Source: Henricia sp. BOLD:AAB3569 (lineage: Eukaryota > Echinodermata > Asteroidea > Spinulosida > Echinasteridae). From it: a stretch of DNA of 64,000 nt. The position numbers were made by a program, and so were the translations under genes. Shown one piece after another: positions 1 through 63,054 of this stretch (positions are counted from its first letter, which is position 1; each line of letters opens with the position of its first letter). Location: contig JBBELK010001198.1 of assembly GCA_037783545.1 (NCBI GenBank), positions 124,001 to 188,000 of the forward strand. Direction: 5' to 3'. Below the pieces are notes generated by a model that saw only the letters and a program-made list of their open reading frames with translations, was not told the DNA's origin and ran no database searches.

Positions 1-44
1 ACACCTCTTTGGGGTACTCCTGAGTTGTGCGCATGCTCAGTCAA

Positions 45-6100: not shown

Positions 6101-6225
6101 CCCTAAACTCTCTATATTGCGCACTTGTCATAAAAAATTGACAGACTTTCGCCGGGAAACGGCAGAGAAATTTCAAAGTTTAGAAAAAACTGGGTTGATG
6201 CTTCCTGACTGCTCTCACGCAAACC

Positions 6226-36262: not shown

Positions 36263-36406
36263 GTGGCTGTCTGTACACACCGCTTTGGGGTACTCCTGAG
36301 TTGTGCGCATGCTCAGTCATTCGGACTGTCGTTAACGCACCGCAGTTTGGCTCGGCAATTTGGTCAAAGTGTGGTCCAAACGTCGGCAAATTTGGAGGTC
36401 GAAAAA

Positions 36407-39232: not shown

Positions 39233-39467
39233 GTGGCTGTCTGTACACACCTCTTTGGGGTACTCCTGAGTTGTGCGCATGCTCAGTCATTCGGCAAATT
39301 TGGAGGTCGAAAAATGTTCCGACGAACTTCAAATTTTGCATGCCCTAAACTCTCTATATTGCGCACTTGTCATAAAAAATTGACAGACTTTCGCCGGGAA
39401 ATGGCAGAGAAATTTCAAAGTTTAGAACAAACTGGGTTGAGGCTTCCTGACTGCTCTCGCGCAAACC
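39233..39467 (+). repeat. Shortened 235-bp monomer 5
   Basis: Same 62-bp deletion (junction about 39294) with GAACAAAC after it. Unlike the other short copies, the monomer that follows has CACCTCTTT rather than CACCGCTTT. Confidence 0.9.
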
Positions 39468-39764
39468 GTGGCTGTCTGTACACACCTCTTTGGGGTACTC
39501 CTGAGTTGTGCGCATGCTCAGTTATTCGGACTGTTGTTAACGCACCGCAGTTTGGCTCGGCAATTTGGTCAAAGTGTGGTCCAAACGTCGGCAAATTTGG
39601 AGGTCGAAAAATGTTCCGACGAACTTCAAATTTTGCATGCCCTAAACTCTCTATATTGCGCACTTGTCATACAAAATTGACAGACTTTCGCCGGGAAATG
39701 GCAGAGAAATTTCAAAGTTTAGAAAAAACTGGGTTGAGGCTTCCTGACTGCTCTCACGCAAACC

Positions 39765-39999
39765 GTGGCTGTCTGTACACACCTCTTTGGGGTACTCCTG
39801 AGTTGTGCGCATGCTCAGTCATTCGGCAAATTTGGAGGTCGAAAAATGTTCCGACGAACTTCAAATTTTGCATGCCCTAAACTCTCTATATTGCGCACTT
39901 GTCATAAAAAATTGACAGACTTTCGCCGGGAAATGGCAGAGAAATTTCAAAGTTTAGAACAAACTGGGTTGAGGCTTCCTGACTGCTCTCGCGCAAACC
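39765..39999 (+). repeat. Shortened 235-bp monomer 6
   Basis: Same junction (about 39826), only 532 bp after the preceding short copy, so one full monomer (with GTTATTCGG and GACTGTTGTT) lies between. This is the densest spacing in the window. Confidence 0.9.
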
Positions 40000-40593
40000 G
40001 TGGCTGTCTGTACACACCGCTTTGGGGTACTCCTGAGTTGTGCGCATGCTCAGTCATTCGGACTGTCGTTAACGCACCGCAGTTTGGCTCGGCAATTTGG
40101 TCAAAGTGTGGTCCAAACGTCGGCAAATTTGGAGATCGAAAAATGTTCCGACGAACTTCAAATTTTGCATGCCCTAAACTCTCTATATTGCGCACTTGTC
40201 ATAAAAAATTGACAGACTTTCGCCGGGAAATGGCAGAGAAATTTCAAAGTTTAGAAAAAACTGGGTTGAGGCTTCCTGACTGCTCTCGCGCAAACCGTGG
40301 CTGTCTGTACACACCTCTTTGGGGTACTCCTGAGTTGTGCGCATGCTCAGTCATTCGGACTGTCGTTAACGCACCGCAGTTTGGCTCGGCAATTTGGTCA
40401 AAGTGTGGTCCAAACGTCGGCAAATTTGGAGGTCGAAAAATTTTCCGACGAACTTCAAATTTTGCATGCCCTAAACTCTCTATATTGCGCACTTGTCATA
40501 AAAAATTGACAGACTTTCGCCGGGAAATGGCAGAGAAATTTCAAAGTTTAGAAAAAACTGGGTTGAGGCTTCCTGACTGCTCTCACGCAAACC

Positions 40594-43205
40594 GTGGCTG
40601 TCTGTACACACCTCTTTGGGGTACTCCTGAGTTGTGCGCATGCTCAGTCATTCGGACTGTCGTTAACGCACCGCAGTTTGGCTCGGCAATTTGGTCAAAG
40701 TGTGGTCCAAACGTCGGCAAATTTGGAGGTCGAAAAATGTCCGACGAACTTCAAATTTTGCATGCCCTAAACTCTCTATATTGCGCACTTGTCATAAAAA
40801 ATTGACAGACTTTCGCCGGGAAATGGCAGAGAAATTTCAAAGTTTAGAAAAAACTGGGTTGAGGCTTCCTGACTGCTCTCACGCAAACCGTGGCTGTCTG
40901 TACACACCTCTTTGGGGTACTCCTGAGTTGTGCGCATGCTCAGTCATTCGGACTGTCGTTAACGCACCGCAGTTTGGCTCGGCAATTTGGTCAAAGTGTG
41001 GTCCAAACGTCGGCAAATTTGGAGGTCGAAAAATGTTCCGACGAACTTCAAATTTTGCATGCCGTAAACTCTCTATATTGCGCACTTGTCATAAAAAATT
41101 GACAGACTTTCGCCGGGAAATGGCAGAGAAATTTCAAAGTTTAGAAAAAACTGGGTTGAGGCTTCCTGACTGCTCTCACGCAAACCGTGGCTGTCTGTAC
41201 ACACCTCTTTGGGGTACTCCTGAGTTGTGCGCATGCTCAGTCATTCGGACTGTCGTTAACGCACCGCAGTTTGGCTCGGCAATTTGGTCAAAGTGTGGTC
41301 CAAACGTCGGCAAATTTGGAGGTGGAAAAATGTTCCGACGTACTTCAAATTTTGCATGCCCTAAACTCTCTATATTGCGCACTTGTCATAAAAAATTGAC
41401 AGACTTTCGCCGGGAAATGGCAGAGAAATTTCAAAGTTTAGAAAAAACTGGGTTGAGGCTTCCTGACTGCTCTCACGCAAACCGTGGCTGTCTGTACACA
41501 CCTCTTTGGGGTACTCCTGAGTTGTGCGCATGCTCAGTCATTCGGACTGTTGTTAACGCACCGCAGTTTGGCTCGGCAATTTGGTCAAAGTGTGGTCCAA
41601 ACGTCGGCAAATTTGGAGGTCGAAAAATGTTCCGACGAACTTCAAATTTTGCATGCCCTAAACTCTCTATATTGCGCACTTGTCATACAAAATTGACAGA
41701 CTTTCGCCGGGAAATGGCAGAGAAATTTCAAAGTTTAGAAAAAAACTGGGTTGAGGCTTCCTGACTGCTCTCACGCAAACCGTGGCTGTCTGTACACACC
41801 TCTTTGGGGTACTCCTGAGTTGTGCGCATGCTCAGTCATTCGGCAAATTTGGAGGTCGAAAAATGTTCCGACGAACTTCAAATTTTGCATGCCCTAAACT
41901 CTCTATATTGCGCACTTGTCATAAAAAATTGACAGACTTTCGCCGGGAAATGGCAGAGAAATTTCAAAGTTTAGAACAAACTGGGTTGAGGCTTCCTGAC
42001 TGCTCTCGCGCAAACCGTGGCTGTCTGTACACACCGCTTTGGGGTACTCCTGAGTTGTGCGCATGCTCAGTCATTCGGACTGTCGTTAACGCACCGCAGT
42101 TTGGCTCGGCAATTTGGTCAAAGTGTGGTCCAAACGTCGGCAAATTTGGAGGTCGAAAAATGTTCCGACGAACTTCAAATTTTGCATGCCCTAAACTCTC
42201 TATATTGCGCACTTGTCATAAAAAATTTACAGACTTTCGCCGGGAAATGGCAGAGAAATTTCAAAGTTTAGAAAAAACTGGGTTGAGGCTTCCTGACTGC
42301 TCTCACGCAAACCGTGGCTGTCTGTACACACCTCTTTGGGGTACTCCTGAGTTGTGCGCATGCTCAGTCATTCGGACTGTCGTTAACGCACCGCAGTTTG
42401 GCTCGGCAATTTGGTCAAAGTGTGGTCCAAACGTCGGCAAATTTGGAGATCGAAAAATGTTCCGACGAACTTCAAATTTTGCATGCCCTAAACTCTCTAT
42501 ATTGCGCACTTGTCATAAAAAATTGACAGACTTTCGCCGGGAAATGGCAGAGAAATTTCAAAGTTTAGAAAAAACTGGGTTGAGGCTTCCTGACTGCTCT
42601 CACGCAAACCGTGGCTGTCTGTACACACCTCTTTGGGGTACTCCTGAGTTGTGCGCATGCTCAGTCATTCGGACTGTCGTTAACGCACCGCAGTTTGGCT
42701 CGGCAATTTGGTCAAAGTGTGGTCCAAACGTCGGCAAATTTGGAGGTCGAAAAATGTTCCGACGAACTTCAAATTTTGCATGCCCTAAACTCCCTATATT
42801 GCGCACTTGTCATAAAAAATTGACAGACTTTCGCCGGGAAATGGCAGAGAAATTTCAAAGTTTAGAAAAAAACTGGGTTGAGGCTTCCTGACTGCTCTCG
42901 CGCAAACCGTGGCTGTCTGTACACACCTCTTTGGGGTACTCCTGAGTTGTGCGCATGCTCAGTCATTCGGACTGTCGTTAACGCACCGCAGTTTGGCTCG
43001 GCAATTTGGTCAAAGTGTGGTCCAAACGTCGGCAAATTTGGAGGTCGAAAAATGTTCCGACGAACTTCAAATTTTGCATGCCCTAAACTCTCTATATTGC
43101 GCACTTGTCATAAAAAATTGACAGACTTTCGCCGGGAAATGGCAGAGAAATTTCAAAGTTTAGAAAAAACTGGGTTGAGGCTTCCTGACTGCTCTCACGC
43201 AAACC
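40594..43205 (+). repeat. Nine-monomer block, copy A of a 3.44-kb spaced pair
   Basis: Markers in order: ATGTCCGAC (about 40740), GCCGTAAAC (41061), CCGACGTACT (about 41340), GACTGTTGTT with CATACAAAA, short monomer, CACCGCTTT, GGAGATCG (about 42448), CTCCCTATA (about 42791), CTCGCGC. The same series recurs 3439-3441 bp downstream. Private features of this copy are AGGTGGAAAA, AATTTACAG, and two 298-bp monomers. Confidence 0.75.
41782..42016 (+). repeat. Shortened 235-bp monomer 7
   Basis: Same junction (about 41843). The monomer before it is 298 bp long with an extra A in the GAAAAAAC run. GAACAAAC and CACCGCTTT follow. Confidence 0.9.
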
Positions 43206-44034
43206 GTGGCTGTCTGTACACACCTCTTTGGGGTACTCCTGAGTTGTGCGCATGCTCAGTCATTCGGACTGTTGTTAACGCACCGCAGTTTGGCTCGGCA
43301 ATTTGGTCAAAGTGTGGTCCAAACGTCGGCAAATTTGGAGGTCGAAAAATGTTCCGACGAACTTCAAATTTTGCATGCCCTAAACTCTCTATATTGCGCA
43401 CTTGTCATACAAAATTGACAGACTTTCGCCGGGAAATGGCAGAGAAATTTCAAAGTTTAGAAAAAACTGGGTTGAGGCTTCCTGACTGCTCTCACGCAAA
43501 CCGTGGCTGTCTGTACACACCTCTTTGGGGTACTCCTGAGTTGTGCGCATGCTTAGTCATTCGGCAAATTTGGAGGTCGAAAAATGTTCCGACGAACTTC
43601 AAATTTTGCATGCCCTAAACTCTCTATATTGCGCACTTGTCATAAAAAATTGACAGACTTTCGCCGGGAAATGGCAGAGAAATTTCAAAGTTTAGAACAA
43701 ACTGGGTTGAGGCTTCCTGACTGCTCTCGCGCAAACCGTGGCTGTCTGTACACACCGCTTTGGGGTACTCCTGAGTTGTGCGCATGCTCAGTCATTCGGA
43801 CTGTCGTTAACGCACCGCAGTTTGGCTCGGCAATTTGGTCAAAGTGTGGTCCAAACGTCGGCAAATTTGGAGGTCGAAAAATGTTCCGACGAACTTCAAA
43901 TTTTGCATGCCCTAAACTCTCTATATTGTGCACTTGTCATAAAAAATTGACAGACTTTCGCCGGGAAATGGCAGAGAAATTTCAAAGTTTAGAAAAAACT
44001 GGGTTGAGGCTTCCTGACTGCTCTCACGCAAACC
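43206..44034 (+). repeat. 829-bp three-monomer module (full, short, full)
   Basis: GACTGTTGTT/CATACAAAA monomer, then a short monomer, then a CACCGCTTT monomer. This is the same 829-bp module that repeats at 32355-33183 and 34902-35730. Here it separates the two copies of the 3.44-kb spaced block. Confidence 0.72.
43503..43737 (+). repeat. Shortened 235-bp monomer 8
   Basis: Same junction (about 43564) with a private GCTTAGTC just before it. GAACAAAC and CACCGCTTT follow. Confidence 0.9.
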
Positions 44035-45221
44035 GTGGCTGTCTGTACACACCTCTTTGGGGTACTCCTGAGTTGTGCGCATGCTCAGTCATTCGGACTG
44101 TCGTTAACGCACCGCAGTTTGGCTCGGCAATTTGGTCAAAGTGTGGTCCAAACGTCGGCAAATTTGGAGGTCGAAAAATGTCCGACGAACTTCAAATTTT
44201 GCATGCCCTAAACTCTCTATATTGCGCACTTGTCATAAAAAATTGACAGACTTTCGCCGGGAAATGGCAGAGAAATTTCAAAGTTTAGAAAAAACTGGGT
44301 TGAGGCTTCCTGACTGCTCTCACGCAAACCGTGGCTGTCTGTACACACCTCTTTGGGGTACTCCTGAGTTGTGCGCATGCTCAGTCATTCGCACTGTCGT
44401 TAACGCACCGCAGTTTGGCTCGGCCATATGGTCAAAGTGTGGTCCAAACGTCGGCAAATTTGGAGGTCGAAAAATGTTCCGACGAACTTCAAATTTTGCA
44501 TGCCGTAAACTCTCTATATTGCGCACTTGTCATAAAAAATTGACAGACTTTCGCCGGGAAATGGCAGAGAAATTTCAAAGTTTAGAAAAAACTGGGTTGA
44601 GGCTTCCTGACTGCTCTCACGCAAACCGTGGCTGTCTGTACACACCTCTTTGGGGTACTCCTGAGTTGTGCGCATGCTCAGTCATTCGGACTGTCGTTAA
44701 CGCACCGCAGTTTGGCTCGGCAATTTGGTCAAAGTGTGGTCCAAACGTCGGCAAATTTGGAGGTCGAAAAATGTTCCGACGTACTTCAAATTTTGCATGC
44801 CCTAAACTCTCTATATTGCGCACTTGTCATAAAAAATTGACAGACTTTCGCCGGGAAATGGCAGAGAAATTTCAAAGTTTAGAAAAAACTGGGTTGAGGC
44901 TTCCTGACTGCTCTCACGCAAACCGTGGCTGTCTGTACACACCTCTTTGGGGTACTCCTGAGTTGTGCGCATGCTCAGTCATTCGGACTGTTGTTAACGC
45001 ACCGCAGTTTGGCTCGGCAATTTGGTCAAAGTGTGGTCCAAACGTCGGCAAATTTGGAGGTCGAAAAATGTTCCGACGAACTTCAAATTTTGCATGCCCT
45101 AAACTCTCTATATTGCGCACTTGTCATACAAAATTGACAGACTTTCGCCGGGAAATGGCAGAGAAATTTCAAAGTTTAGAAAAAACTGGGTTGAGGCTTC
45201 CTGACTGCTCTCACGCAAACC

Positions 45222-45456
45222 GTGGCTGTCTGTACACACCTCTTTGGGGTACTCCTGAGTTGTGCGCATGCTCAGTCATTCGGCAAATTTGGAGGTCGAA
45301 AAATGTTCCGACGAACTTCAAATTTTGCATGCCCTAAACTCTCTATATTGCGCACTTGTCATAAAAAATTGACAGACTTTCGCCGGGAAATGGCAGAGAA
45401 ATTTCAAAGTTTAGAACAAACTGGGTTGAGGCTTCCTGACTGCTCTCGCGCAAACC
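45222..45456 (+). repeat. Shortened 235-bp monomer 9
   Basis: Same junction (about 45283). It begins the first of two 1423-bp units, with GAACAAAC and CACCGCTTT after it. Confidence 0.9.
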
Positions 45457-46644
45457 GTGGCTGTCTGTACACACCGCTTTGGGGTACTCCTGAGTTGTGC
45501 GCATGCTCAGTCATTCGGACTGTCGTTAACGCACCGCAGTTTGGCTCGGCAATTTGGTCAAAGTGTGGTCCAAACGTCGGCAAATTTGGAGGTCGAAAAA
45601 TGTTCCGACGAACTTCAAATTTTGCATGCCCTAAACTCTCTATATTGCGCACTTGTCATAAAAAATTGACAGACTTTCGCCGGGAAATGGCAGAGAAATT
45701 TCAAAGTTTAGAAAAAACTGGGTTGAGGCTTCCTGACTGCTCTCACGCAAACCGTGGCTGTCTGTACACACCTCTTTGGGGTACTCCTGAGTTGTGCGCA
45801 TGCTCAGTCATTCGGACTGTCGTTAACGCACCGCAGTTTGGCTCGGCAATTTGGTCAAAGTGTGGTCCAAACGTCGGCAAATTTGGAGATCGAAAAATGT
45901 TCCGACGAACTTCAAATTTTGCATGCCCTAAACTCTCTATATTGCGCACTTGTCATAAAAAATTGACAGACTTTCGCCGGGAAATGGCAGAGAAATTTCA
46001 AAGTTTAGAAAAAACTGGGTTGAGGCTTCCTGACTGCTCTCACGCAAACCGTGGCTGTCTGTACACACCTCTTTGGGGTACTCCTGAGTTGTGCGCATGC
46101 TCAGTCATCCGGACTGTCGTTAACGCACCGCAGTTTGGCTCGGCAATTTGGTCAAAGTGTGGTCCAAACGTCGGCAAATTTGGAGGTCGAAAAATGTTCC
46201 GACGAACTTCAAATTTTGCATGCCCTAAACTCCCTATATTGCGCACTTGTCATAAAAAATTGACAGACTTTCGCCGGGAAATGGCAGAGAAATTTCAAAG
46301 TTTAGAAAAAACTGGGTTGAGGCTTCCTGACTGCTCTCGCGCAAACCGTGGCTGTCTGTACACACCTCTTTGGGGTACTCCTGAGTTGTGCGCATGCTCA
46401 GTCATTCGGACTGTCGTTAACGCACCGCAGTTTGGCTCGGCAATTTGGTCAAAGTGTGGTCCAAACGTCGGCAAATTTGGAGGTCGAAAAATGTTCCGAC
46501 GAACTTCAAATTTTGCATGCCCTAAACTCTCTATATTGCGCACTTGTCATAAAAAATTGACAGACTTTCGCCGGGAAATGGCAGAGAAATTTCAAAGTTT
46601 AGAAAAAACTGGGTTGAGGCTTCCTGACTGCTCTCACGCAAACC
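45222..46644 (+). repeat. 1423-bp five-monomer HOR, copy 1
   Basis: One short and four full monomers in the order short/GAACAAAC, CACCGCTTT, GGAGATCG, CTCCCTATA, CTCGCGC. All markers recur at +1423 in the next unit. It overlaps the 3' part of the nine-monomer block because HOR families are nested here. Confidence 0.8.
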
Positions 46645-46879
46645 GTGGCTGTCTGTACACACCTCTTTGGGGTACTCCTGAGTTGTGCGCATGCTCAGTC
46701 ATTCGGCAAATTTGGAGGTCGAAAAATGTTCCGACGAACTTCAAATTTTGCATGCCCTAAACTCTCTATATTGCGCACTTGTCATAAAAAATTGACAGAC
46801 TTTCGCCGGGAAATGGCAGAGAAATTTCAAAGTTTAGAACAAACTGGGTTGAGGCTTCCTGACTGCTCTCGCGCAAACC
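46645..46879 (+). repeat. Shortened 235-bp monomer 10 (last)
   Basis: Same junction (about 46706). No further short copy occurs in the remaining 17 kb. Confidence 0.9.
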
Positions 46880-48067
46880 GTGGCTGTCTGTACACACCGC
46901 TTTGGGGTACTCCTGAGTTGTGCGCATGCTCAGTCATTCGGACTGTCGTTAACGCACCGCAGTTTGGCTCGGCAATTTGGTCAAAGTGTGGTCCAAACGT
47001 CGGCAAATTTGGAGGTCGAAAAATGTTCCGACGAACTTCAAATTTTGCATGCCCTAAACTCTCTATATTGCGCACTTGTCATAAAAAATTGACAGACTTT
47101 CGCCGGGAAATGGCAGAGAAATTTCAAAGTTTAGAAAAAACTGGGTTGAGGCTTCCTGACTGCTCTCACGCAAACCGTGGCTGTCTGTACACACCTCTTT
47201 GGGGTACTCCTGAGTTGTGCGCATGCTCAGTCATTCGGACTGTCGTTAACGCACCGCAGTTTGGCTCGGCAATTTGGTCAAAGTGTGGTCCAAACGTCGG
47301 CAAATTTGGAGATCGAAAAATGTTCCGACGAACTTCAAATTTTGCATGCCCTAAACTCTCTATATTGCGCACTTGTCATAAAAAATTGACAGACTTTCGC
47401 CGGGAAATGGCAGAGAAATTTCAAAGTTTAGAAAAAACTGGGTTGAGGCTTCCTGACTGCTCTCACGCAAACCGTGGCTGTCTGTACACACCTCTTTGGG
47501 GTACTCCTGAGTTGTGCGCATGCTCAGTCATTCGGACTGTCGTTAACGCACCGCAGTTTGGCTCGGCAATTTGGTCAAAGTGTGGTCCAAACGTCGGCAA
47601 ATTTGGAGGTCGAAAAATGTTCCGACGAACTTCAAATTTTGCATGCCCTAAACTCCCTATATTGCGCACTTGTCATAAAAAATTGACAGACTTTCGCCGG
47701 GAAATGGCAGAGAAATTTCAAAGTTTAGAAAAAACTGGGTTGAGGCTTCCTGACTGCTCTCGCGCAAACCGTGGCTGTCTGTACACACCTCTTTGGGGTA
47801 CTCCTGAGTTGTGCGCATGCTCAGTCATTCGGACTGTCGTTAACGCACCGCAGTTTGGCTCGGCAATTTGGTCAAAGTGTGGTCCAAACGTCGGCAAATT
47901 TGGAGGTCGAAAAATGTTCCGACGAACTTCAAATTTTGCATGCCCTAAACTCTCTATATTGCGCACTTGTCATAAAAAATTGACAGACTTTCGCCGGGAA
48001 ATGGCAGAGAAATTTCAAAGTTTAGAAAAAACTGGGTTGAGGCTTCCTGACTGCTCTCACGCAAACC
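46645..48067 (+). repeat. 1423-bp five-monomer HOR, copy 2
   Basis: Same order and spacing as copy 1: short junction 46706, CACCGCTTT about 46897, GGAGATCG about 47311, CTCCCTATA about 47654. Its short monomer is the only one preceded by a CTCGCGC monomer instead of a GACTGTTGTT/CATACAAAA monomer, as expected at the joint of a tandem duplication. Confidence 0.8.
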
Positions 48068-49346
48068 GTGGCTGTCTGTACACACCTCTTTGGGGTACTC
48101 CTGAGTTGTGCGCATGCTCAGTCATTCGGACTGTCGTTAACGCACCGCAGTTTGGCTCGGCAATTTGGTCAAAGTGTGGTCCAAACGTCGGCAAATTTGG
48201 AGGTCGAAAAATGTTCCGACTAACTTCAAATTTTGCATGCCCTAAACTCTCTATATTGCGCACTTGTCATAAAAAATTGACAGACTTCGCCGGGAAATGG
48301 CAGAGAAATTTCAAAGTTTAGAAAAAACTGGGTTGAGGCTTCCTGACTGCTCTCGCACAAACCGTGGCTGTCTGTACACACCTCTTTGGGGTACTCCTGA
48401 GTTGTGCGCATGCTCAGTCATTCGGACTGTCGTTAACGCACCGCAGTTTGGCTCGGCAATTTGGTCAAAGTGTGGTCCAAACGTCGGCAAATTTGGAGGT
48501 CGAAAAATGTTCCGACGAACTTCAAATTTTGCATGCCCTAAACTCTCTATATTGCGCACTTGTCATAAAAAATTGACAGACTTTCGCCGGGAAATGGCAG
48601 AGAAATTTCAAAGTTTAGAAAAAACTGGGTTGAGGCTTCCTGACTGCTCTCGCGCAAACCGTGGCTGTCTGTACACACCTCTTTGGGGTACTCCTGAGTT
48701 GTGCGCATGCTCAGTCATTCGGACTGTCGTTAACGCACCGCAGTTTGGCTCGGCAATTTGGTCAAAGTGTGGTCCAAACGTCGGCAAATTTGGAGGTCGA
48801 AAAATTTTCCGACGAACTTCAAATTTTGCATGCCCTAAACTCTCTATATTGCGCACTTGTCATAAAAAATTGACAGACTTTCGCCGGGAAATGGCAGAGA
48901 AATTTCAAAGTTTAGAAAAAACTGGGTTGAGGCTTCCTGACTGCTCTCACGCAAACCGTGGCTGTCTGTACACACCTCTTTGGGGTACTCCTGAGTTGTG
49001 CGCATGCTCAGTCATTCGGACTGTCGTTAACGCACCGCAGTTTGGCTCGGCATTTTGGTCAAAGTGTGGTCCAAACGTCGGCAAATTTGGAGGTCGAAAA
49101 ATGTCCGACGAACTTCAAATTTTGCATGCCCTAAACTCTCTATATTGCGCACTTGTCATAAAAAATTGACAGACTTTCGCCGGGAAATGGCAGAGAAATT
49201 TCAAAGTTTAGAAAAAACTGGGTTGAGGCTTCCTGACTGCTCTCACGCAAACCGTGGCTGTCTGTACACACCTCTTTGGGGTACTCCTGAGTTGTGCGCA
49301 TGCTCAGTCATTCGGACTGTCGTTAACGCACCGCAGTTTGGCTCGG
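48068..49346 (+). repeat. Monomers left of the interruption
   Basis: Four full monomers and the first 93 bp of a fifth. They include a stray GACTTCGCC deletion (48286, otherwise confined to domain 1), CCGACTAACTTC, AAAATTTTCC at about 48805 and ATGTCCGAC at about 49101. The AAAATTTTCC then ATGTCCGAC pair is repeated just right of the interruption at about 50423 and 50721. Confidence 0.8.
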
Positions 49347-49368
49347 TCGTTAACGCACCGCAGTTTGG
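49320..49368 (+). repeat. 27-bp satellite segment, tandemly duplicated at the left junction
   Basis: The 27 bp from TCGTTAACG to GGCTCGG (49320-49346) begin again at 49347 and run for 22 bp, to TTTGG at 49368, before foreign sequence starts. No other monomer in the window shows this duplication. It may be a repair scar of the insertion event, or satellite carried at the edge of the inserted piece. Confidence 0.8.
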
Positions 49369-49580
49369 GGCGGTCGGGTTGGCGTACGGGTTCTTTCCTC
49401 GCTGGCCTGTGATGACCGCTTTCCAAAGGACTACCCTTGCACATAGGTAGTTTGGAGGAGTTTTTCGCGGAATCCCGTGATGTCCTGGAACGTTGCTCAA
49501 TGATGGAGTGACCAGTACGTACGTCACGGGGAACGCCGATGCAATTTTGGAACACGATTGGATCCGAGTCTGCGGTCTTG
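49369..49580. other. Unrecognised 212-bp part of the interruption
   Basis: Sequence unlike the satellite and without clear internal repeats. A reverse-strand frame runs through it, but it continues into satellite and across the non-coding minisatellite, so it gives no evidence of a gene. I do not recognise it. Confidence 0.6.
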
Positions 49581-49999
49581 ATTCTTCCAGACCTGGACTG
49601 GTGACGATTGTGGTTTTATGAGGATGTACCTGTGGTGCTTCTCGAAGGATATGACCTGACACTAGGACACGATCGACCAAGATTGGTGATGATTGTGATG
49701 GAGAATACTCGCCGGATAATGACCTGGATTGGCAACGACAACGAATGAGGAAATTTGGTGGATAAATGACCTGGACTGGCAACGACAACGAATGAGGAAA
49801 TTTGGCAATAACGGCGAACAATTGGTGGATAAATGACCTGGACTGGCAACGACTACGAATGAGGAAATTTGGCAATAACGGCGAACGCTTAGTGGATAAA
49901 TGACCTGGACTGGCAACGACTACGAATGAGGAAATTTGGCAATAACGGCGAACGCTTAGTGGATAAATGACCTGGACTAGCAACGACAACGGCTGAAGC
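49581..49999 (+). repeat. 67-bp minisatellite with decaying copies
   Basis: GATAAATGACCTGGACTGG starts at 49761, 49828, 49895 and 49962, each 67 bp apart. The 49828 and 49895 copies are identical over the whole unit, and the 49761 copy differs at about four sites. A 47-bp shortened copy starts at 49714. Two older copies of 66-67 bp can be traced at 49648 (GATATGACCTGACAC) and 49581 (GACCTGGACTGG followed by TTATGAGGA, like the AATGAGGA of the young copies). The last copy stops after about 30 bp. Divergence rises toward the left. Confidence 0.85.
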
Positions 50000-50037
50000 A
50001 CTGGTTCTATCGGTAACAACGTTGGACTGGTTAGCGT

Positions 50038-50059
50038 GTTTTATTCGGACGAATAAAAC
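50038..50059. repeat. Perfect palindrome, 10-bp arms
   Basis: GTTTTATTCG and CGAATAAAAC are exact reverse complements separated by GA. The palindrome lies 14 bp from the right edge of the interruption. It could form a hairpin in RNA. Palindromes overlapping a polyadenylation signal occur near the ends of some retroelement terminal repeats, but that is only a weak hint. Confidence 0.85.
50052..50057 (+). promoter_or_regulatory. Possible polyadenylation signal AATAAA
   Basis: AATAAA inside the right arm of the palindrome, followed 14 bases later by an AAAAA run at the edge of the interruption. The arrangement would suit the end of a polyadenylated transcript copied back into DNA. The A run is short and TTTAGAAAAA also occurs in the satellite itself, so this is tentative. 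Confidence 0.35.
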
Positions 50060-50073
50060 ATTTTAGAAAAAGG

Positions 50074-52356
50074 CAATTTGGTCAAAGTGTGGTCCAAACG
50101 TCGGCAAATTTGGAGGTCGAAAAATGTTCCGACGAACTTCAAATTTTGCATGCCCTAAACTCTCTATATTGCGCACTTGTCATAAAAAATTGACAGACTT
50201 TCGCCGGGAAATGGCAGAGAAATTTCAAAGTTTAGAAAAAACTGGGTTGAGGCTTCCTGACTGCTCTCGCGCAAACCGTGGCTGTCTGTACACACCTCTT
50301 TGGGGTACTCCTGAGTTGTGCGCATGCTCAGTCATTCGGACTGTCGTTAACGCACCGCAGTTTGGCTCGGCAATTTGGTCAAAGTGTGGTCCAAACGTCG
50401 GCAAATTTGGAGGTCGAAAAATTTTCCGACGAACTTCAAATTTTGCATGCCCTAAACTCTCTATATTGCGCACTTGTCATAAAAAATTGACAGACTTTCG
50501 CCGGGAAATGGCAGAGAAATTTCAAAGTTTAGAAAAAACTGGGTTGAGGCTTCCTGACTGCTCTCACGCAAACCGTGGCTGTCTGTACACACCTCTTTGG
50601 GGTACTCCTGAGTTGTGCGCATGCTCAGTCATTCGGACTGTCGTTAACGCACCGCAGTTTGGCTCGGCAATTTGGTCAAAGTGTGGTCCAAACGTCGGCA
50701 AATTTGGAGGTCGAAAAATGTCCGACGAACTTCAAATTTTGCATGCCCTAAACTCTCTATATTGCGCACTTGTCATAAAAAATTGACAGACTTTCGCCGG
50801 GAAATGGCAGAGAAATTTCAAAGTTTAGAAAAAACTGGGTTGAGGCTTCCTGACTGCTCTCACGCAAACCGTGGCTGTCTGTACACACCTCTTTGGGGTA
50901 CTCCTGAGTTGTGCGCATGCTCAGTCATTCGGACTGTCGTTAACGCACCGCAGTTTGGCTCGGCAATTTGGTCAAAGTGTGGTCCAAACGTCGGCAAATT
51001 TGGAGGTCGAAAAATGTTCCGACGAACTTCAAATTTTGCATGCCGTAAACTCTCTATATTGCGCACTTGTCATAAAAAATTGACAGACTTTCGCCGGGAA
51101 ATGGCAGAGAAATTTCAAAGTTTAGAAAAAACTGGGTTGAGGCTTCCTGACTGCTCTCACGCAAACCGTGGCTGTCTGTACACACCTCTTTGGGGTACTC
51201 CTGAGTTGTGCGTATGCTCAGTCATTCGGACTGTCGTTAACGCACCGCAGTTTGGCTCGGCAATTTGGTCAAAGTGTGGTCCAAACGTCGGCAAATTTGG
51301 AGGTCGAAAAATGTTCCGACGAACTTCAAATTTTGCATGCCCTAAACTCTCTATATTGCGCACTTGTCATAAAAAATTGACAGACTTTCGCCGGGAAATG
51401 GCAGAGAAATTTCAAAGTTTAGAAAAAAACTGGGTTGAGGCTTCCTGACTGCTCTCACGCAAACCGTGGCTGTCTGTACACACCTCTTTGGGGTACTCCT
51501 GAGTTGTGCGCATGCTCAGTCATTCGGACTGTCGTTAACGCACCGCAGTTTGGCTCGGCAATTTGGTCAAAGTGTGGTCCAAACGTCGGCAAATTTGGAG
51601 TTCGAAAAATGTTCCGACGTACTACAAATTTTGCATGCCCTAAACTCTCTATATTGCGCACTTGTCATAAAAAATTGACAGACTTTCGCCGGGAAATGGC
51701 AGAGAAATTTCAAAGTTTAGAAAAAACTGGGTTGAGGCTTCCTGACTGCTCTCACGCAAACCGTGGCTGTCTGTACACACCTCTTTGGGGTACTCCTGAG
51801 TTGTGCGCATGCTCAGTCATTCGGACTGTCGTTAACGCACCGCAGTTTGGCTCGGCAATTTGGTCAAAGTGTGGTCCAAACGTCGGCAAATTTGGAGGTC
51901 GAAAAATGTTCCGACGAACTTCAATTTTTGCATGCCCTAAACTCCCTATATTGCGCACTTGTCATAAAAAATTGACAGACTTTCGCCGGGAAATGGCAGA
52001 GAAATTTCAAAGTTTAGAAAAAACTGGGTTGAGGCTTCCTGACTGCTCTCGCGCAAACCGTGGCTGTCTGTACACACCGCTTTGGGGTACTCCTGAGTTG
52101 TGCGCATGCTCAGTCATTCGGACTGTCGTTAACGCACCGCAGTTTGGCTCGGCAATTTGGTCAAAGTGTGGTCCAAACGTCGGCAAATTTGGAGATCGAA
52201 AAATGTTCCGACGAACTTCAAATTTTGCATGCCCTAAACTCTCTATATTGCGCACTTGTCATAAAAAATTGACAGACTTTCGCCGGGAAATGGCAGAGAA
52301 ATTTCAAAGTTTAGAAAAAACTGGGTTGAGGCTTCCTGACTGCTCTCACGCAAACC
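50074..52356 (+). repeat. Continuation of domain 2 right of the interruption
   Basis: CTCGCGC, AAAATTTTCC (about 50423), ATGTCCGAC (50721), GCCGTAAAC (51042), GCGTATGCTC (private), CCGACGTACTAC with AGTTCGAAAA (private), CTCCCTATA (about 51951), then CACCGCTTT together with GGAGATCG (about 52192). The order resembles the 40.3-42.6 and 44.0-46.3 kb blocks but lacks a short monomer and a GACTGTTGTT monomer. Confidence 0.75.
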
Positions 52357-53843
52357 GTGGCTGTCTGTACACACCTCTTTGGGGTACTCCTGAGTTGTGC
52401 GCATGCTCAGTCATTCGGACTGTCGTTAACGCACCGCAGTTTGGCTCGGCAATTTGGTCAAAGTGTGGTCCAAACGTCGGCAAATTTGGAGGTCGAAAAA
52501 TGTTCCGACGAACTTCAAATTTTGCATGCCCTAAACTCTCTATATTGCGCACTTGTCATAAAAAATTGACAGACTTTCGCCGGGAAATGGCAGAGAAATT
52601 TCAAAGTTTAGAAAAAACTCGGTTGAGGCTTCCTGACTGCTCTCACGCAAACCGTGGCTGTCTGTACACACCTCTTTGGGGTACTCCTGAGTTGTGCGCA
52701 TGCTCAGTCATTCGGACTGTCGTTAACGCACCGCAGTTTGGCTCGGCAATTTGGTCAAAGTGTGGTCCAAACGTCGGCAAATTTGGAGGTCGAAAAATGT
52801 TCCGACGAACTTCAAATTTTGCATGCCCTAAACTCTCTATATTGCGCACTTGTCATAAAAAAATTGACAGACTTTCGCCGGGAAATGGCAGAGAAATTTC
52901 AAAGTTTAGAAAAAACTGGGTTGAGGCTTCCTGACTGCTCTCACGCAAACCGTGGCTGTCTGTACACACCTCTTTGGGGTACTCCTGAGTTGTGCGCATG
53001 CTCAGTCATTCGGACTGTCGTTAACGCACCGCAGTTTGGCTCGGCAATTTGGTCAAAGTGTGGTCCAAACGTCGGCAAATTTGGAGGTCGAAAAATGTTC
53101 CGACGAACTTCAAATTTTGCATGCCCTAAACTCTCTATATTGCGCACTTGTCATAAAAAATTGACAGACTTTCGCAGGGAAATGGCAGAGAAATTTCAAA
53201 GTTTAGAAAAAACTGGGTTGAGGCTTCCTGACTGCTCTCACGCAAACCGTGGCTGTCTGTACACACCTCTTTGGGGTACTCCTGAGTTGTGCGCATGCTC
53301 AGTCATTCGGACTGTCGTTAACGCACCGCAGTTTGGCTCGGCAATTTGGTCAAAGTGTGGTCCAAACGTCGGCAAATTTGGAGGTCGAAAAATGTTCCGA
53401 CGAACTTCAAATTTTGCATGCCCTAAACTCTCTATATTGCGCACTTGTCATAAAAAAATTGACAGACTTTCGCCGGGAAATGGCAGAGAAATTTCAAAGT
53501 TTAGAAAAAACTGGGTTGAGGCTTCCTGACTGCTCTCACGCAAACCGTGGCTGTCTGTACACACCTCTTTGGGGTACTCCTGAGTTGTGCGCATGCTCAG
53601 TCATTCGGACTGTCGTTAACGCACCGCAGTTTGGCTCGGCAATTTGGTCAAAGTGTGGTCCAAACGTCGGCAAATTTGGAGGTCGAAAAATGTTCCGACG
53701 AACTTCAAATTTTGCATGCCCTAAACTCTCTATATTGCGCACTTGTCATAAAAAATTGACAGACTTTCGCCGGGAAATGGCAGAGAAATTTCAAAGTTTA
53801 GAAAAAACTGGGTTGAGGCTTCCTGACTGCTCTCACGCAAACC
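52357..53843 (+). repeat. 1487-bp five-monomer HOR, copy 1
   Basis: Markers: AAAACTCGG (about 52619), CATAAAAAAATTG with one extra A (about 52857), CGCAGGG (about 53174), a second extra-A copy (about 53452), then a plain monomer. The first four recur 1487 bp later. The extra A is inherited in register, so it is not a random sequencing error. Confidence 0.75.
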
Positions 53844-55330
53844 GTGGCTGTCTGTACACACCTCTTTGGGGTACTCCTGAGTTGTGCGCATGCTCAGTCA
53901 TTCGGACTGTCGTTAACGCACCGCAGTTTGGCTCGGCAATTTGGTCAAAGTGTGGTCCAAACGTCGGCAAATTTGGAGGTCGAAAAATGTTCCGACGAAC
54001 TTCAAATTTTGCATGCCCTAAACTCTCTATATTGCGCACTTGTCATAAAAAATTGACAGACTTTCGCCGGGAAATGGCAGAGAAATTTCAAAGTTTAGAA
54101 AAAACTCGGTTGAGGCTTCCTGACTGCTCTCACGCAAACCGTGGCTGTCTGTACACACCTCTTTGGGGTACTCCTGAGTTGTGCGCATGCTCAGTCATTC
54201 GGACTGTCGTTAACGCACCGCAGTTTGGCTCGGCAATTTGGTCAAAGTGTGGTCCAAACGTCGGCAAATTTGGAGGTCGAAAAATGTTCCGACGAACTTC
54301 AAATTTTGCATGCCCTAAACTCTCTATATTGCGCACTTGTCATAAAAAAATTGACAGACTTTCGCCGGGAAATGGCAGAGAAATTTCAAAGTTTAGAAAA
54401 AACTGGGTTGAGGCTTCCTGACTGCTCTCACGCAAACCGTGGCTGTCTGTACACACCTCTTTGGGGTACTCCTGAGTTGTGCGCATGCTCAGTCATTCGG
54501 ACTGTCGTTAACGCACCGCAGTTTGGCTCGGCAATTTGGTCAAAGTGTGGTCCAAACGTCGGCAAATTTGGAGGTCGAAAAATGTTCCGACGAACTTCAA
54601 ATTTTGCATGCCCTAAACTCTCTATATTGCGCACTTGTCATAAAAAATTGACAGACTTTCGCAGGGAAATGGCAGAGAAATTTCAAAGTTTAGAAAAAAC
54701 TGGGTTGAGGCTTCCTGACTGCTCTCACGCAAACCGTGGCTGTCTGTACACACCTCTTTGGGGTACTCCTGAGTTGTGCGCATGCTCAGTCATTCGGACT
54801 GTCGTTAACGCACCGCAGTTTGGCTCGGCAATTTGGTCAAAGTGTGGTCCAAACGTCGGCAAATTTGGAGGTCGAAAAATGTTCCGACGAACTTCAAATT
54901 TTGCATGCCCTAAACTCTCTATATTGCGCACTTGTCATAAAAAAATTGACAGACTTTCGCCGGGAAATGGCAGAGAAATTTCAAAGTTTAGAAAAAACTG
55001 GGTTGAGGCTTCCTGACTGCTCTCACGCAAACCGTGGCTGTCTGTACACACCTCTTTGGGGTACTCCTGAGTTGTGCGCATGCTCAGTCATTCGGACTGT
55101 CGTTAACGCACCGCAGTTTGGCTCGGCAATTTGGTCAAAGTGTGGTCCAAACGTCGGCAAATTTGGAGGTCGAAAAATGTTCCGACGAACTTCAAATTTT
55201 GCATGCCCTAAACTCTCTATATTGCGCACTTGTCATAAAAAATTGACAGACTTTCGCAGGGAAATGGCAGAGAAATTTCAAAGTTTAGAAAAAACTGGGT
55301 TGAGGCTTCCTGACTGCTCTCACGCAAACC
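53844..55330 (+). repeat. 1487-bp five-monomer HOR, copy 2
   Basis: AAAACTCGG at about 54106, extra-A runs at about 54345 and 54940, CGCAGGG at about 54661. The final monomer has CGCAGGG (about 55255) where copy 1 has CGCCGGG. Confidence 0.75.
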
Positions 55331-58005
55331 GTGGCTGTCTGTACACACCTCTTTGGGGTACTCCTGAGTTGTGCGCATGCTCAGTCATTCGGACTGTCGT
55401 TAACGCACCGCAGTTTGGCTCGGCAATTTGGTCAAAGTGTGGTCCAAACGTCGGCAAATTTGGAGGTCGAAAAATGTTCCGACGAACTTCAAATTTTGCA
55501 TGCCCTAAACTCTCTATATTGCGCACTTGTCATAAAAAATTGACAGACTTTCGCCGGGAAATGGCAGAGAAATTTCAAAGTTTAGAAAAAACTGGGTTGA
55601 GGCTTCCTGACTGCTCTCACGCAAACCGTGGCTGTCTGTACACACCTCTTTGGGGTACTCCTGAGTTGTGCGCATGCTCAGTCATTCGGACTGTCGTTAA
55701 CGCACCGCAGTTTGGCTCGGCAATTTGGTCAAAGTGTGGTCCAAACGTCGGCAAATTTGGAGGTCGAAAAATGTTCCGACGAACTTCAAATTTTGCATGC
55801 CCTAAACTCTCTATATTGCGCACTTGTCATACAAAATTGACAGACTTTCCCCGGGAAATGGCAGAGAAATTTCAAAGTTTAGAAAAAACTGGGTTGAGGC
55901 TTCCTGACTGCTCTCACGCAAACCGTGGCTGTCTGTACACACCTCTTTGGGGTACTCCTGAGTTGTGCGCATGCTCAGTCATTCGGACTGTCGTTAACGC
56001 ACCGCAGTTTGGCTCGGCAATTTGGTCAAAGTGTGGTCCAAACGTCGGCAAATTTGGAGGTCGAAAAATGTTCCGACGAACTTCAAATTGTGCATGCCCT
56101 AAACTCTCTATATTGCGCACTTGTCATAAAAAATTGACAGACTTTCGCAGGGAAATGGCAGAGAAATTTCAAAGTTTAGAAAAAAACTGGGTTGAGGCTT
56201 CCTGACTGCTCTCACGCAAACCGTGGCTGTCTGTACACACCTCTTTGGGGTACTCCTGAGTTGTGCGCATGCTCAGTCATTCGGACTGTCGTTAACGCAC
56301 CGCAGTTTGGCTCGGCAATTTGGTCAAAGTGTGGTCCAAACGTCGGCAAATTTGGAGGTCGAAAAATGTTCCGACGAACTTCAAATTTTGCATGCCCTAA
56401 ACTCTCTATATTGCGCACTTGTCATAAAAAATTGACAGACTTTCGCCGGGAAATGGCAGAGAAATTTCAAAGTTTAGAAAAAACTGGGTTGAGGCTTCCT
56501 GACTGCTCTCGCGCAAACCGTGGCTGTCTGTACACACCGCTTTGGGGTACTCCTGAGTTGTGCGCATGCTCAGTCATTCGGACTGTCGTTAACGCACCGC
56601 AGTTTGGCTCGGCAATTTGGTCAAAGTGTGGTCCAAACGTCGGCAAATTTGGAGGTCGAAAAATGTTCCGACGAACTTCAAATTTTGCATGCCCTAAACT
56701 CTCTATATTGCGCACTTGTCATAAAAAATTGATAGACTTTCGCCGGGAAATGGCAGAGAAATTTCAAAGTTTAGAAAAAACTGGGTTGAGGCTTCCTGAC
56801 TGCTCTCACGCAAACCGTGGCTGTCTGTACACACCTCTTTGGGGTACTCCTGAGTTGTGCGCATGCTCAGTCATTCGGACTGTCGTTAACGCACCGCAGT
56901 TTGGCTCGGCAATTTGGTCAAAGTGTGGTCCAAACGTCGGCAAATTTGGAGGTCGAAAAATGTTCCGACGAACTTCAAATTTTGCATGCCCTAAACTCTC
57001 TATATTGCGCACTTGTCATAAAAAATTGACAGACTTTCGCCGGGAAATGGCAGAGAAATTTCAAAGTTTAGAAAAAACTGGGTTGAGGCTTCCTGACTGC
57101 TCTCACGCAAACCGTGGCTGTCTGTACACACCTCTTTGGGGTACTCCTGAGTTGTGCGCATGCTCAGTCATTCGGACTGTCGTTAACGCACCGCAGTTTG
57201 GCTCGGCAATTTGGTCAAAGTGTGGTCCAAACGTCGGCAAATTTGGAGGTCGAAAAATGTTCCGACGAACTTCAAATTTTGCATGCCCTAAACTCTCTAT
57301 ATTGCGCACTTGTCATAAAAAATTGACAGACTTTCGCCGGGAAATGGCAGAGAAATTTCAAAGTTTAGAAAAAACTGGGTTGAGGCTTCCTGACTGCTCT
57401 CACGCAAACCGTGGCTGTCTGTACACACCTCTTTGGGGTACTCCTGAGTTGTGCGCATGCTCAGTCATTCGGACTGTCGTTAACGCACCGCAGTTTGGCT
57501 CGGCAATTTGGTCAAAGTGTGGTCCAAACGTCGGCAAATTTGGAGGTCGAAAAATGTTCCGACGAACTTCAAATTTTGCATGCCCTAAACTCTCTATATT
57601 GCGCACTTGTCATAAAAAATTGACAGACTTTCGCCGGGAAATGGCAGAGAAATTTCAAAGTTTAGAAAAAACTCGGTTGAGGCTTCCTGACTGCTCTCAC
57701 GCAAACCGTGGCTGTCTGTACACACCTCTTTGGGGTACTCCTGAGTTGTGCGCATGCTCAGTCATTCGGACTGTCGTTAACGCACCGCAGTTTGGCTCGG
57801 CAATTTGGTCAAAGTGTGGTCCAAACGTCGGCAAATTTGGAGGTCGAAAAATGTTCCGACGAACTTCAAATTTTGCATGCCCTAAACTCTCTATATTGCG
57901 CACTTGTCATAAAAAAATTGACAGACTTTCGCCGGGAAATGGCAGAGAAATTTCAAAGTTTAGAAAAAACTGGGTTGAGGCTTCCTGACTGCTCTCACGC
58001 AAACC
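55034..58005 (+). repeat. 2972-bp ten-monomer HOR, copy 1
   Basis: Order: CGCAGGG; plain; CATACAAAA with TTTCCCCGGG; AATTGTGC with CGCAGGG; plain; CTCGCGC/CACCGCTTT with GATAGAC (about 56731); plain; plain; AAAACTCGG; extra-A. The first eight reappear from 58006. It shares its first monomer with the preceding HOR because the units overlap in phase. Confidence 0.75.
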
Positions 58006-60381
58006 GTGGCTGTCTGTACACACCTCTTTGGGGTACTCCTGAGTTGTGCGCATGCTCAGTCATTCGGACTGTCGTTAACGCACCGCAGTTTGGCTCGGCA
58101 ATTTGGTCAAAGTGTGGTCCAAACGTCGGCAAATTTGGAGGTCGAAAAATGTTCCGACGAACTTCAAATTTTGCATGCCCTAAACTCTCTATATTGCGCA
58201 CTTGTCATAAAAAATTGACAGACTTTCGCAGGGAAATGGCAGAGAAATTTCAAAGTTTAGAAAAAACTGGGTTGAGGCTTCCTGACTGCTCTCACGCAAA
58301 CCGTGGCTGTCTGTACACACCTCTTTGGGGTACTCCTGAGTTGTGCGCATGCTCAGTCATTCGGACTGTCGTTAACGCACCGCAGTTTGGCTCGGCAATT
58401 TGGTCAAAGTGTGGTCCAAACGTCGGCAAATTTGGAGGTCGAAAAATGTTCCGACGAACTTCAAATTTTGCATGCCCTAAACTCTCTATATTGCGCACTT
58501 GTCATAAAAAATTGACAGACTTTCGCCGGGAAATGGCAGAGAAATTTCAAAGTTTAGAAAAAACTGGGTTGAGGCTTCCTGACTGCTCTCACGCAAACCG
58601 TGGCTGTCTGTACACACCTCTTTGGGGTACTCCTGAGTTGTGCGCATGCTCAGTCATTCGGACTGTCGTTAACGCACCGCAGTTTGGCTCGGCAATTTGG
58701 TCAAAGTGTGGTCCAAACGTCGGCAAATTTGGAGGTCGAAAAATGTTCCGACGAACTTCAAATTTTGCATGCCCTAAACTCTCTATATTGCGCACTTGTC
58801 ATACAAAATTGACAGACTTTCGCCGGGAAATGGCAGAGAAATTTCAAAGTTTAGAAAAAACTGGGTTGAGGCTTCCTGACTGCTCTCACGCAAACCGTGG
58901 CTGTCTGTACACACCTCTTTGGGGTACTCCTGAGTTGTGCGCATGCTCAGTCATTCGGACTGTCGTTAACGCACCGCAGTTTGGCTCGGCAATTTGGTCA
59001 AAGTGTGGTCCAAACGTCGGCAAATTTGGAGGTCGAAAAATGTTCCGACGAACTTCAAATTGTGCATGCCCTAAACTCTCTATATTGCGCACTTGTCATA
59101 AAAAATTGACAGACTTTCGCAGGGAAATGGCAGAGAAATTTCAAAGTTTAGAAAAAACTGGGTTGAGGCTTCCTGACTGCTCTCACGCAAACCGTGGCTG
59201 TCTGTACACACCTCTTTGGGGTACTCCTGAGTTGTGCGCATGCTCAGTCATTCGGACTGTCGTTAACGCACCGCAGTTTGGCTCGGCAATTTGGTCAAAG
59301 TGTGGTCCAAACGTCGGCAAATTTGGAGGTCGAAAAATGTTCCGACGAACTTCAAATTTTGCATGCCCTAAACTCTCTATATTGCGCACTTGTCATAAAA
59401 AATTGACAGACTTTCGCCGGGAAATGGCAGAGAAATTTCAAAGTTTAGAAAAAACTGGGTTGAGGCTTCCTGACTGCTCTCGCGCAAACCGTGGCTGTCT
59501 GTACACACCGCTTTGGGGTACTCCTGAGTTGTGCGCATGCTCAGTCATTCGGACTGTCGTTAACGCACCGCAGTTTGGCTCGGCAATTTGGTCAAAGTGT
59601 GGTCCAAACGTCGGCAAATTTGGAGGTCGAAAAATGTTCCGACGAACTTCAAATTTTGCATGCCCTAAACTCTCTATATTGCGCACTTGTCATAAAAAAT
59701 TGATAGACTTTCGCCGGGAAATGGCAGAGAAATTTCAAAGTTTAGAAAAAACTGGGTTGAGGCTTCCTGACTGCTCTCACGCAAACCGTGGCTGTCTGTA
59801 CACACCTCTTTGGGGTACTCCTGAGTTGTGCGCATGCTCAGTCATTCGGACTGTCGTTAACGCACCGCAGTTTGGCTCGGCAATTTGGTCAAAGTGTGGT
59901 CCAAACGTCGGCAAATTTGGAGGTCGAAAAATGTTCCGACGAACTTCAAATTTTGCATGCCCTAAACTCTCTATATTGCGCACTTGTCATAAAAAATTGA
60001 CAGACTTTCGCCGGGAAATGGCAGAGAAATTTCAAAGTTTAGAAAAAACTGGGTTGAGGCTTCCTGACTGCTCTCACGCAAACCGTGGCTGTCTGTACAC
60101 ACCTCTTTGGGGTACTCCTGAGTTGTGCGCATGCTCAGTCATTCGGACTGTCGTTAACGCACCGCAGTTTGGCTCGGCAATTTGGTCAAAGTGTGGTCCA
60201 AACGTCGGCAAATTTGGAGGTCGAAAAATGTTCCGACGAACTTCAAATTTTGCATGCCCTAAACTCTCTATATTGCGCACTTGTCATAAAAAATTGACAG
60301 ACTTTCGCCGGGAAATGGCAGAGAAATTTCAAAGTTTAGAAAAAACTGGGTTGAGGCTTCCTGACTGCTCTCACGCAAACC
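58006..60381 (+). repeat. 2972-bp HOR, partial copy 2 (eight monomers)
   Basis: CGCAGGG, plain, CATACAAAA (about 58801), AATTGTGC with CGCAGGG (about 59060), plain, CACCGCTTT with GATAGAC (about 59702), plain, plain: the same order as 55034 onward. The AAAACTCGG and extra-A monomers of copy 1 are then missing. Confidence 0.75.
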
Positions 60382-60678
60382 GTGGCTGTCTGTACACACC
60401 TCTTTGGGGTACTCCTGAGTTGTGCGCATACTCAGTCATTCGGACTGTCGTTAACGCACCGCAGTTTGGCTCGGCAATTTGGTCAAAGTGTGGTCCAAAC
60501 GTCGGCAAATTTGGAGGTCGAAAAATGTTCCGACGAACTTCAAATTTTGCATGCCCTAAACTCTCTATATTGCGCACTTGTCATAAAAAATTGACAGACT
60601 TTCGCCGGGAAATGGCAGAGAAATTTCAAAGTTTAGAAAAAACTGGGTTGAGGCTTCCTGACTGCTCTCACGCAAACC
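58897..60678 (+). repeat. 1782-bp six-monomer HOR, copy 1
   Basis: AATTGTGC/CGCAGGG, plain, CACCGCTTT/GATAGAC, plain, plain, and a copy with private GCGCATACTC. The AATTGTGC monomer returns at 60679, 1782 bp on. The unit is nested in the larger ten-monomer pattern. Confidence 0.72.
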
Positions 60679-62163: not shown

Positions 62164-63054
62164 GTGGCTGTCTGTACACACCGCTTTGGGGTACTCCTGA
62201 GTTGTGCGCATGCTCAGTCATTCGGACTGTCGTTAACGCACCGCAGTTTGGCTCGGCAATTTGGTCAAAGTGTGGTCCAAACGTCGGCAAATTTGGAGGT
62301 CGAAAAATGTTCCGACGAACTTCAAATTTTGCATGCCCTAAACTCTCTATATTGCGCACTTGTCATAAAAAATTGATAGACTTTCGCCGGGAAATGGCAG
62401 AGAAATTTCAAAGTTTAGAAAAAACTGGGTTGAGGCTTCCTGACTGCTCTCACGCAAACCGTGGCTGTCTGTACACACCTCTTTGGGGTACTCCTGAGTT
62501 GTGCGCATGCTCAGTCATTCGGACTGTCGTTAACGCACCGCAGTTTGGCTCGGCAATTTGGTCAAAGTGTGGTCCAAACGTCGGCAAATTTGGAGGTCGA
62601 AAAATGTTCCGACGAACTTCAAATTTTGCATGCCCTAAACTCTCTATATTGCGCACTTGTCATAAAAAATTGACAGACTTTCGCCGGGAAATGGCAGAGA
62701 AATTTCAAAGTTTAGAAAAAACTGGGTTGAGGCTTCCTGACTGCTCTCACGCAAACCGTGGCTGTCTGTACACACCTCTTTGGGGTACTCCTGAGTTGTG
62801 CGCATGCTCAGTCATTCGGACTGTCGTTAACGCACCGCAGTTTGGCTCGGCAATTTGGTCAAAGTGTGGTCCAAACGTCGGCAAATTTGGAGGTCGAAAA
62901 ATGTTCCGACGAACTTCAAATTTTGCATGCCCTAAACTCTCTATATTGCGCACTTGTCATAAAAAATTGACAGACTTTCGCCGGGAAATGGCAGAGAAAT
63001 TTCAAAGTTTAGAAAAAACTGGGTTGAGGCTTCCTGACTGCTCTCACGCAAACC
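61273..63054 (+). repeat. 891-bp three-monomer tandem pair
   Basis: Two runs of CACCGCTTT/GATAGAC, plain, plain at 61273-62163 and 62164-63054, exactly 891 bp apart. This is a small, fresh duplication inside the six-monomer pattern. Confidence 0.75.

Follow-up and report, generated by a model that had tools for sequence, protein, structure and literature searches.

A 727-bp insert within a sea star satellite monomer and its possible origin by target-primed reverse transcription

Introduction

A stretch of 64,000 nucleotides from the sea star Henricia sp. (hereafter the window) consists of satellite DNA that is interrupted once, by an insert of 727 bp. What is this insert, and how did it come to lie inside a monomer whose sequence continues undisturbed on the other side? 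The original prediction, which had drawn attention to the locus, left open whether the insert is a mobile element or captured filler DNA, and regarded it as a poor fit to common DNA transposons and LTR elements. The junctions agree with that view, but two features had been overlooked: a 27-bp duplicate of the target at the left end, and an AATAAA together with a run of five A residues (A5) at the right end. Taken together, these features suggest reverse transcription or, with a poorer fit, templated repair. Here we describe the site, the two ends and the core of the insert, and weigh the possible explanations of its origin.

Results

The insertion site and its empty counterparts

The features that define the site are:

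1..64000, + strand: satellite array of about 214 monomers of 297 bp with one interruption, as judged from TRF, motif spacings and the monomer count
50072..50073, + strand: GG that can be assigned to the insert or to the target, a 2-bp duplication or microhomology, as judged from the joined site

TRF assigns the whole window (1-64000) to a single tandem satellite with a period of 297, and the approximately 214 monomers comprise 94 distinct sequences. A limited search of the literature gave no match for a satellite of this length. CpG is depleted in neither the satellite nor the insert, with observed/expected ratios of 1.01 and 1.23, respectively.

An exact 14-bp satellite motif occurs 206 times in the window, from 61 to 63723. 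Across the insertion site (49328-50352), its spacings are 27 and then 997, which sum to 297+727. The remaining 203 spacings are all 295-298 or 532/533, the latter being places where a monomer has a 62-bp deletion. The insert (49347-50073) thus lies inside one monomer with its target complete, as had been proposed, and is indeed the only long non-satellite stretch in the 64 kb.

The array is its own source of empty sites for the insert. When the flanks are joined, 32 exact copies of the 297-bp host monomer, taken with the site at its centre, are found in the rest of the array, and 104 of the joined 200-bp flank around the site. In another frame, the host monomer is one of 31 identical monomers, itself counted. 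Because exact empty monomers are present in the array, we conclude that no target base was lost and none was changed. The site is the middle TCGG of the three in the monomer, in agreement with the original description. It reads CGG/CA under every placement of the insert, and one of the approximately 214 monomers in the window is occupied.

DNA transposons and LTR elements produce flanking duplications of 3-10 bp, or use TA, TTAA, AT or TT targets. At this site the placement is ambiguous by GG only, so neither a 3-9 bp duplication nor a TA, TTAA, AT or TT target is possible. The ends of the insert share only this GG, and terminal repeats were not found. With the 3-10 bp flanking duplication, the TA/TTAA target and the terminal repeats all absent, we rejected a cut-and-paste DNA transposon or LTR element.

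The left end duplicates the upstream target

Two adjacent copies of a satellite segment meet at the left junction:

49320..49346, + strand: original satellite copy, the 27 bp immediately upstream of the insertion point
49347..49373, + strand: 27-bp tandem duplicate of the upstream target, with which the insert begins: 22 bp exact, CT replaced by GG, then CGG

The insert opens with TCGTTAACGCACCGCAGTTTGG (49347-49368), which is identical to the satellite 27 bp upstream (49320-49341). The following five bases are GGCGG in the insert and CTCGG in the target. Insert bases 1-27 therefore repeat 49320-49346 with two substitutions, the first 22 bases being exact, and the earlier statement that there is no target duplication beyond GG does not hold. 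The 27-mer in its substituted form is found once in the window, and its exact satellite form 195 times. Since the substituted form is unique in the window, this part of the array did not supply it in its present form. Altogether, the satellite accounts for about 27 of the 727 bp, with the foreign core spanning approximately 49369-50061.

The right end carries a palindrome, AATAAA and a short A run

Three features are packed into the right end of the insert:

50037..50060, + strand: perfect palindrome of 11 bp around a 2-nt loop, located 13 nt before the right end
50052..50057, + strand: AATAAA, resembling a poly(A) signal and the only plus-strand one in the insert, within the right arm of the palindrome
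50062..50071, + strand: TTTAGAAAAA, closing with the single A5 run that the insert has on its plus strand and equal to 10 bp found elsewhere in the monomer

A stem of at least 11 bp with a loop of at most 6 was found in 0/1000 mononucleotide shuffles of the insert, and the position of the palindrome, so close to the right end, looks like that of a natural 3' end. The left arm of the palindrome yields an AATAAA on the minus strand as well, at 50040. The minus strand also has one A5 run, at 49461, which is not at an end. Among random 40-mers of the same composition, AATAAA and A5 occurred together in 1/200000, in a test that was picked after the sequence was seen. Shuffled tails matched the satellite over at least 10 bp in 31/5000 cases on the same strand and 59/5000 on both strands, in a test likewise chosen post hoc, and the 10-bp match of TTTAGAAAAA is only suggestive of a derivation from the satellite.

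The core of the insert

Between the two ends, the core contains a hairpin and a series of repeats:

49369..50061, + strand: non-satellite core, with no protein family at the cut-off, no RNA family at the gathering score and no relative in the searches made
49369..49420, + strand: GC-rich hairpin with which the core opens, having an outer stem of 7 bp
49590..49743, + strand: a 23-nt motif in its first three copies, which are more diverged than those recurring in the minisatellite units
49758..49991, + strand: minisatellite with a 67-bp unit in 3.5 copies (TRF, 96% matches)

No similarity between the core and the satellite was detectable, the score lying below the median of shuffles; for the first 250 bp of the core, the score was slightly above the shuffle median and below the 95% point. 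As the similarity is no better than that of shuffles, the core is ruled out as a diverged satellite monomer. The 23-nt motif is present in seven copies of at least 66% each, at spacings of 85, 46, 47, 67, 67 and 67, with the later copies falling within the minisatellite. The hairpin has a predicted energy of -24.7 kcal/mol, corresponding to a z of -2.55 on the plus strand against dinucleotide shuffles and of -3.99 on the minus strand. Folding of the whole insert as RNA gave nothing unusual on either strand.

On the minus strand, one frame is open for 265 codons (49246-50040) and extends into the satellite. This longest frame (265 aa) had no Pfam match, and tblastn against phages returned none. 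Ten further open stretches of the core gave none at the Pfam cut-off, the best being NapD (E 0.022, 15.3 bits, with the cut-off at 28). In a frame that spans the final bases of the insert and continues into the satellite, there were eight matches below the cut-off, of which the best was DUF371 (E 0.00057, 20.3 bits against 25); we took DUF371 and the seven others, all below the cut-off, as chance. Across the 13 open stretches scanned, Pfam thus reported no protein family at the cut-off.

ARAGORN found no tRNA, and no Rfam family, U2 included, reached its gathering score. The Rfam search gave two weak matches only, one in the satellite (E 4.4) and one in the core (E 8.7), and a further search gave none. 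We rejected a tRNA- or 5S-derived SINE on the basis that neither ARAGORN nor Rfam recognised a Pol III RNA head. Exact-pattern scans of viral contigs and genome contigs, collections with few or no eukaryotes, gave 0 matches in each of seven scans. No match was returned by blastn of the insert and its flanks against plasmids and phages, or of the core against E. coli, and these results carry little weight since few or no eukaryotes are represented there. No relative of the satellite or the core emerged from these collections, which consist mainly of prokaryotes and viruses. Of six sequence words looked up in the literature, one, a 14-mer that also occurs in a SARS-CoV-2 assay, was taken as chance.

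Target-primed reverse transcription and its alternatives

We asked which process could have produced both ends at once. The absence of target loss, the duplicate of upstream target at one end, and the AATAAA and A5 at the opposite end on the matching strand form the layout of target-primed reverse transcription of an RNA that bears part of the upstream target. We therefore favor, at about even confidence, the reading that the insert is a short non-autonomous retroelement, or a retroposed non-coding RNA, written in by this process from an RNA that started approximately 27 nt up in the satellite. This reading concerns how the insert was made, and not membership in the R2 clade.

According to this account, the bottom strand of the satellite would have been nicked at the middle TCGG, beside CAATTTGG, and the nick would have primed reverse transcription of an RNA whose 3' end carried the palindrome, AAUAAA and a short A tail. 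The RNA would have begun not at the element, but approximately 27 nt upstream in the satellite, because its donor copy presumably sat at the same site of the same satellite and was transcribed from it. If the end of the cDNA was then joined to the upstream satellite without annealing, the outcome would be a tandem 27-bp duplicate of the upstream target. A nick fits better than a resected break, given that no target base was lost or changed. In addition, AATAAA and A5 lie on the strand that places the duplicate at the 5' end, which supports the retroelement reading. Several considerations count against it. One copy is known, no donor and no relative came to light, and the window lacks a reverse transcriptase. 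Owing to its place in a palindrome, the AATAAA has a counterpart on the minus strand, which also has the A5 run at 49461, away from the ends. The match of the last 10 bp to the satellite is more directly explained by repair filler.

Elements of the R2 type offer the closest description of such junctions. Direct duplications of 24-25 bp of upstream 28S are reported at approximately 10% of silkmoth R2 junctions, a 26 bp upstream duplicate at 70% in one jewel wasp, a 21 bp duplicate with 3 substitutions at >90% in the horseshoe crab, and a 24 bp duplicate with one substitution in the sow bug (PMC3774820). For R1 of the melanogaster type, the duplicated stretch upstream of position -9 is given as 16-27 nt (PMC2718515). 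These published duplicates of upstream target in R2 and R1 provide a precedent for 27 bp with two substitutions. As in R2, the insertion described here falls within the unit of a tandem array, has an exact 3' junction and carries at its 5' end a duplicate in the range of 20-28 nt, which in some species is substituted (PMC3774820); such duplicates are seen in part of the R2 lineages. The 32 exact empty monomers establish the precise 3' junction without target loss that R2-like elements require. SIDEs, which are short non-autonomous derivatives of R2, are comparable in being short and non-autonomous (PMC3414825). The parallel with R2 is nonetheless limited, since target bases are lost at R2 junctions in the silkmoth (2-3 bp of 28S) and the sow bug (4 bp) (PMC3774820), and since about a third of Drosophila full-length R2 junctions are reported to have deletions, with few having duplications (PMC2718515, PMC3774820). 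The insert also differs from R2 and SIDEs in having a satellite rather than 28S as its target, in being known from one copy, and in lacking a relative in the searches made, a protein match or an established ribozyme. Its A tail of 5 nt compares with the 13-41 nt given for R2 and SIDE in D. willistoni (PMC3414825).

Resemblances of a looser kind are found in the restriction-like endonuclease clade. YURE elements of sea squirts are occasionally found inside U2-derived satellite repeats, and arthropod Utopia is described as making no target duplication (PMC4640811). The insert shares the satellite location with the former and the lack of target duplication with the latter, as described in that source, but those families are defined by their proteins, and the window has no Rfam match to U2 or any other family. 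The likeness is one of description.

As the main alternative, the insert could be filler captured during error-prone copying repair of a break at TCGG, by polymerase-theta-like end joining or replication template switching. Repair would have copied a 22-bp patch from the satellite 27 bp upstream and attached unrelated DNA or cDNA of approximately 693 bp, perhaps followed by a 10-bp patch of satellite, before the end was joined at GG. We regard this sequence of events as somewhat unlikely, while recognising that it accounts for the exact 22-bp local copy at the left as well as the retroelement reading does, and for the possible 10-bp satellite patch at the right better. The GG at the right would serve as microhomology, and the array holds another microhomology event, in the ten monomers with a 62-bp deletion between TCGG copies. 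Insertions templated by the flanks are described as a hallmark of polymerase-theta-like repair, and are also reported at the junctions of captured T-DNA (PMC10923293). The insert resembles these in its short flank copy at the junction and its microhomology, but templated-insertion repair in that study was accompanied by sizeable deletions, and the deletion is absent here, as is the target loss that is usual, though not obligatory, for filler in general. A core of approximately 690 bp with an element-like 3' end also sets the insert apart from the insertions described in PMC10923293. A random fragment would not favor having the palindrome, the only plus-strand AATAAA and A5 all at its right end.

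An improbable explanation, in our view, is a non-autonomous rolling-circle element of the Helitron2/Helentron type (HINE). HINEs of mites are described as having central repeats, a palindrome of 5-10 bp approximately 8-35 bp from the 3' end and an unmodified target, with at least two T flanking each end of the insertion (PMC4067079). The insert is similar to HINE/DINE-1 elements, which are non-autonomous Helentrons, in being non-coding and in having a minisatellite, an 11-bp palindrome close to the end (13 nt) and an intact target (PMC4067079, PMC7492417). It differs in both the T-flanked target and the subterminal inverted repeats. The site reads CGG/CA under all placements, rather than T-T or A-T, and the score of the best inverted match of the 5' end within the last 100 bp was reached by 1167/2000 shuffles when taken from the insert end and by 1196/2000 when taken from the core end. 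Moreover, a rolling-circle origin leaves the 27-bp copy of the upstream target at the left unexplained. With two defining features failing, target and subterminal inverted repeats, we rejected membership among Helitrons or HINEs. It is very improbable that a chimeric join in the assembly or reads placed unrelated sequence in the array. Such an artefact would agree with the single occurrence in 64 kb, but the exact satellite phase on both sides and the structured right end would then be coincidences.

A candidate ribozyme and a possible satellite-specific family

If the insert is a retroelement, it might belong to a family of short elements that occupy one fixed position of the satellite. Transcription of the satellite would provide the promoter, and the 5' end of the RNA would lie approximately 27-28 nt inside the satellite, possibly through a ribozyme in which the satellite forms the first stem strand. 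The satellite would then play the role that the 28S genes play for R2. We consider this extended scheme unlikely as it stands. Should other copies share this monomer position, the insert would represent a satellite-specific retroelement, for which the near-identical monomers supply dozens of exact empty sites (32 here) and allow the junctions to be read base by base. Such an element would provide a setting in which to ask whether satellite transcripts drive mobile elements. The limited literature search does not imply that elements of this type, specific to a satellite, are missing from the published record. If the insert is instead filler, it is a clean case of foreign DNA entering satellites with their phase unbroken.

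In several arthropods, an HDV-like ribozyme is reported to cut R2 RNA within the upstream 28S, at -28 in the earwig, one jewel wasp and the silkmoth (PMC3774820). A descriptor scan of 90 starts (49310-49399) gave candidates at 17 of them, the joint best being 49346, which has a satellite twin at 49319, and 49391. An extension of 28 nt would have its first base at position 49346. The score of our home-made descriptor at 49346 was reached by 3.1% of 1500 shuffled cores or, over eight starts, by 10% of 400. A stricter HDV-like junction motif was absent at all 90 starts, Rfam searches gave no match to an HDV-like ribozyme, and a first, tighter descriptor gave no candidate among the first 60 starts of the insert and a single one beyond them. 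The candidate HDV-like ribozyme at 49346 is thus not established, and we treat this modelled structure as a lead, not a result. An HDV-like ribozyme starting at 49369 was rejected, as 13% of mononucleotide shuffles produce the 7-bp helix seen at that start.

Organization of the array

Some variation within the array was apparent apart from the insert. Ten monomers that are 235-236 bp long, located between 32429 and 46954 of the window, share a 62-bp deletion that lies between two TCGG copies. Monomers of this form are confined to that region, and the remainder of the window has none, a pattern that suggests a single deletion event followed by local amplification. Within 32429-36337, two deletion monomers reappear 2547 bp further on (32429/34976 and 33258/35805), which indicates a recent segmental duplication inside the array. 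The mean identity of monomers peaks at distances of 3 and 6. Pairs of monomers nine apart are identical in 32 cases, the most of any distance from 1 to 30, a weak hint of a nine-monomer higher-order repeat.
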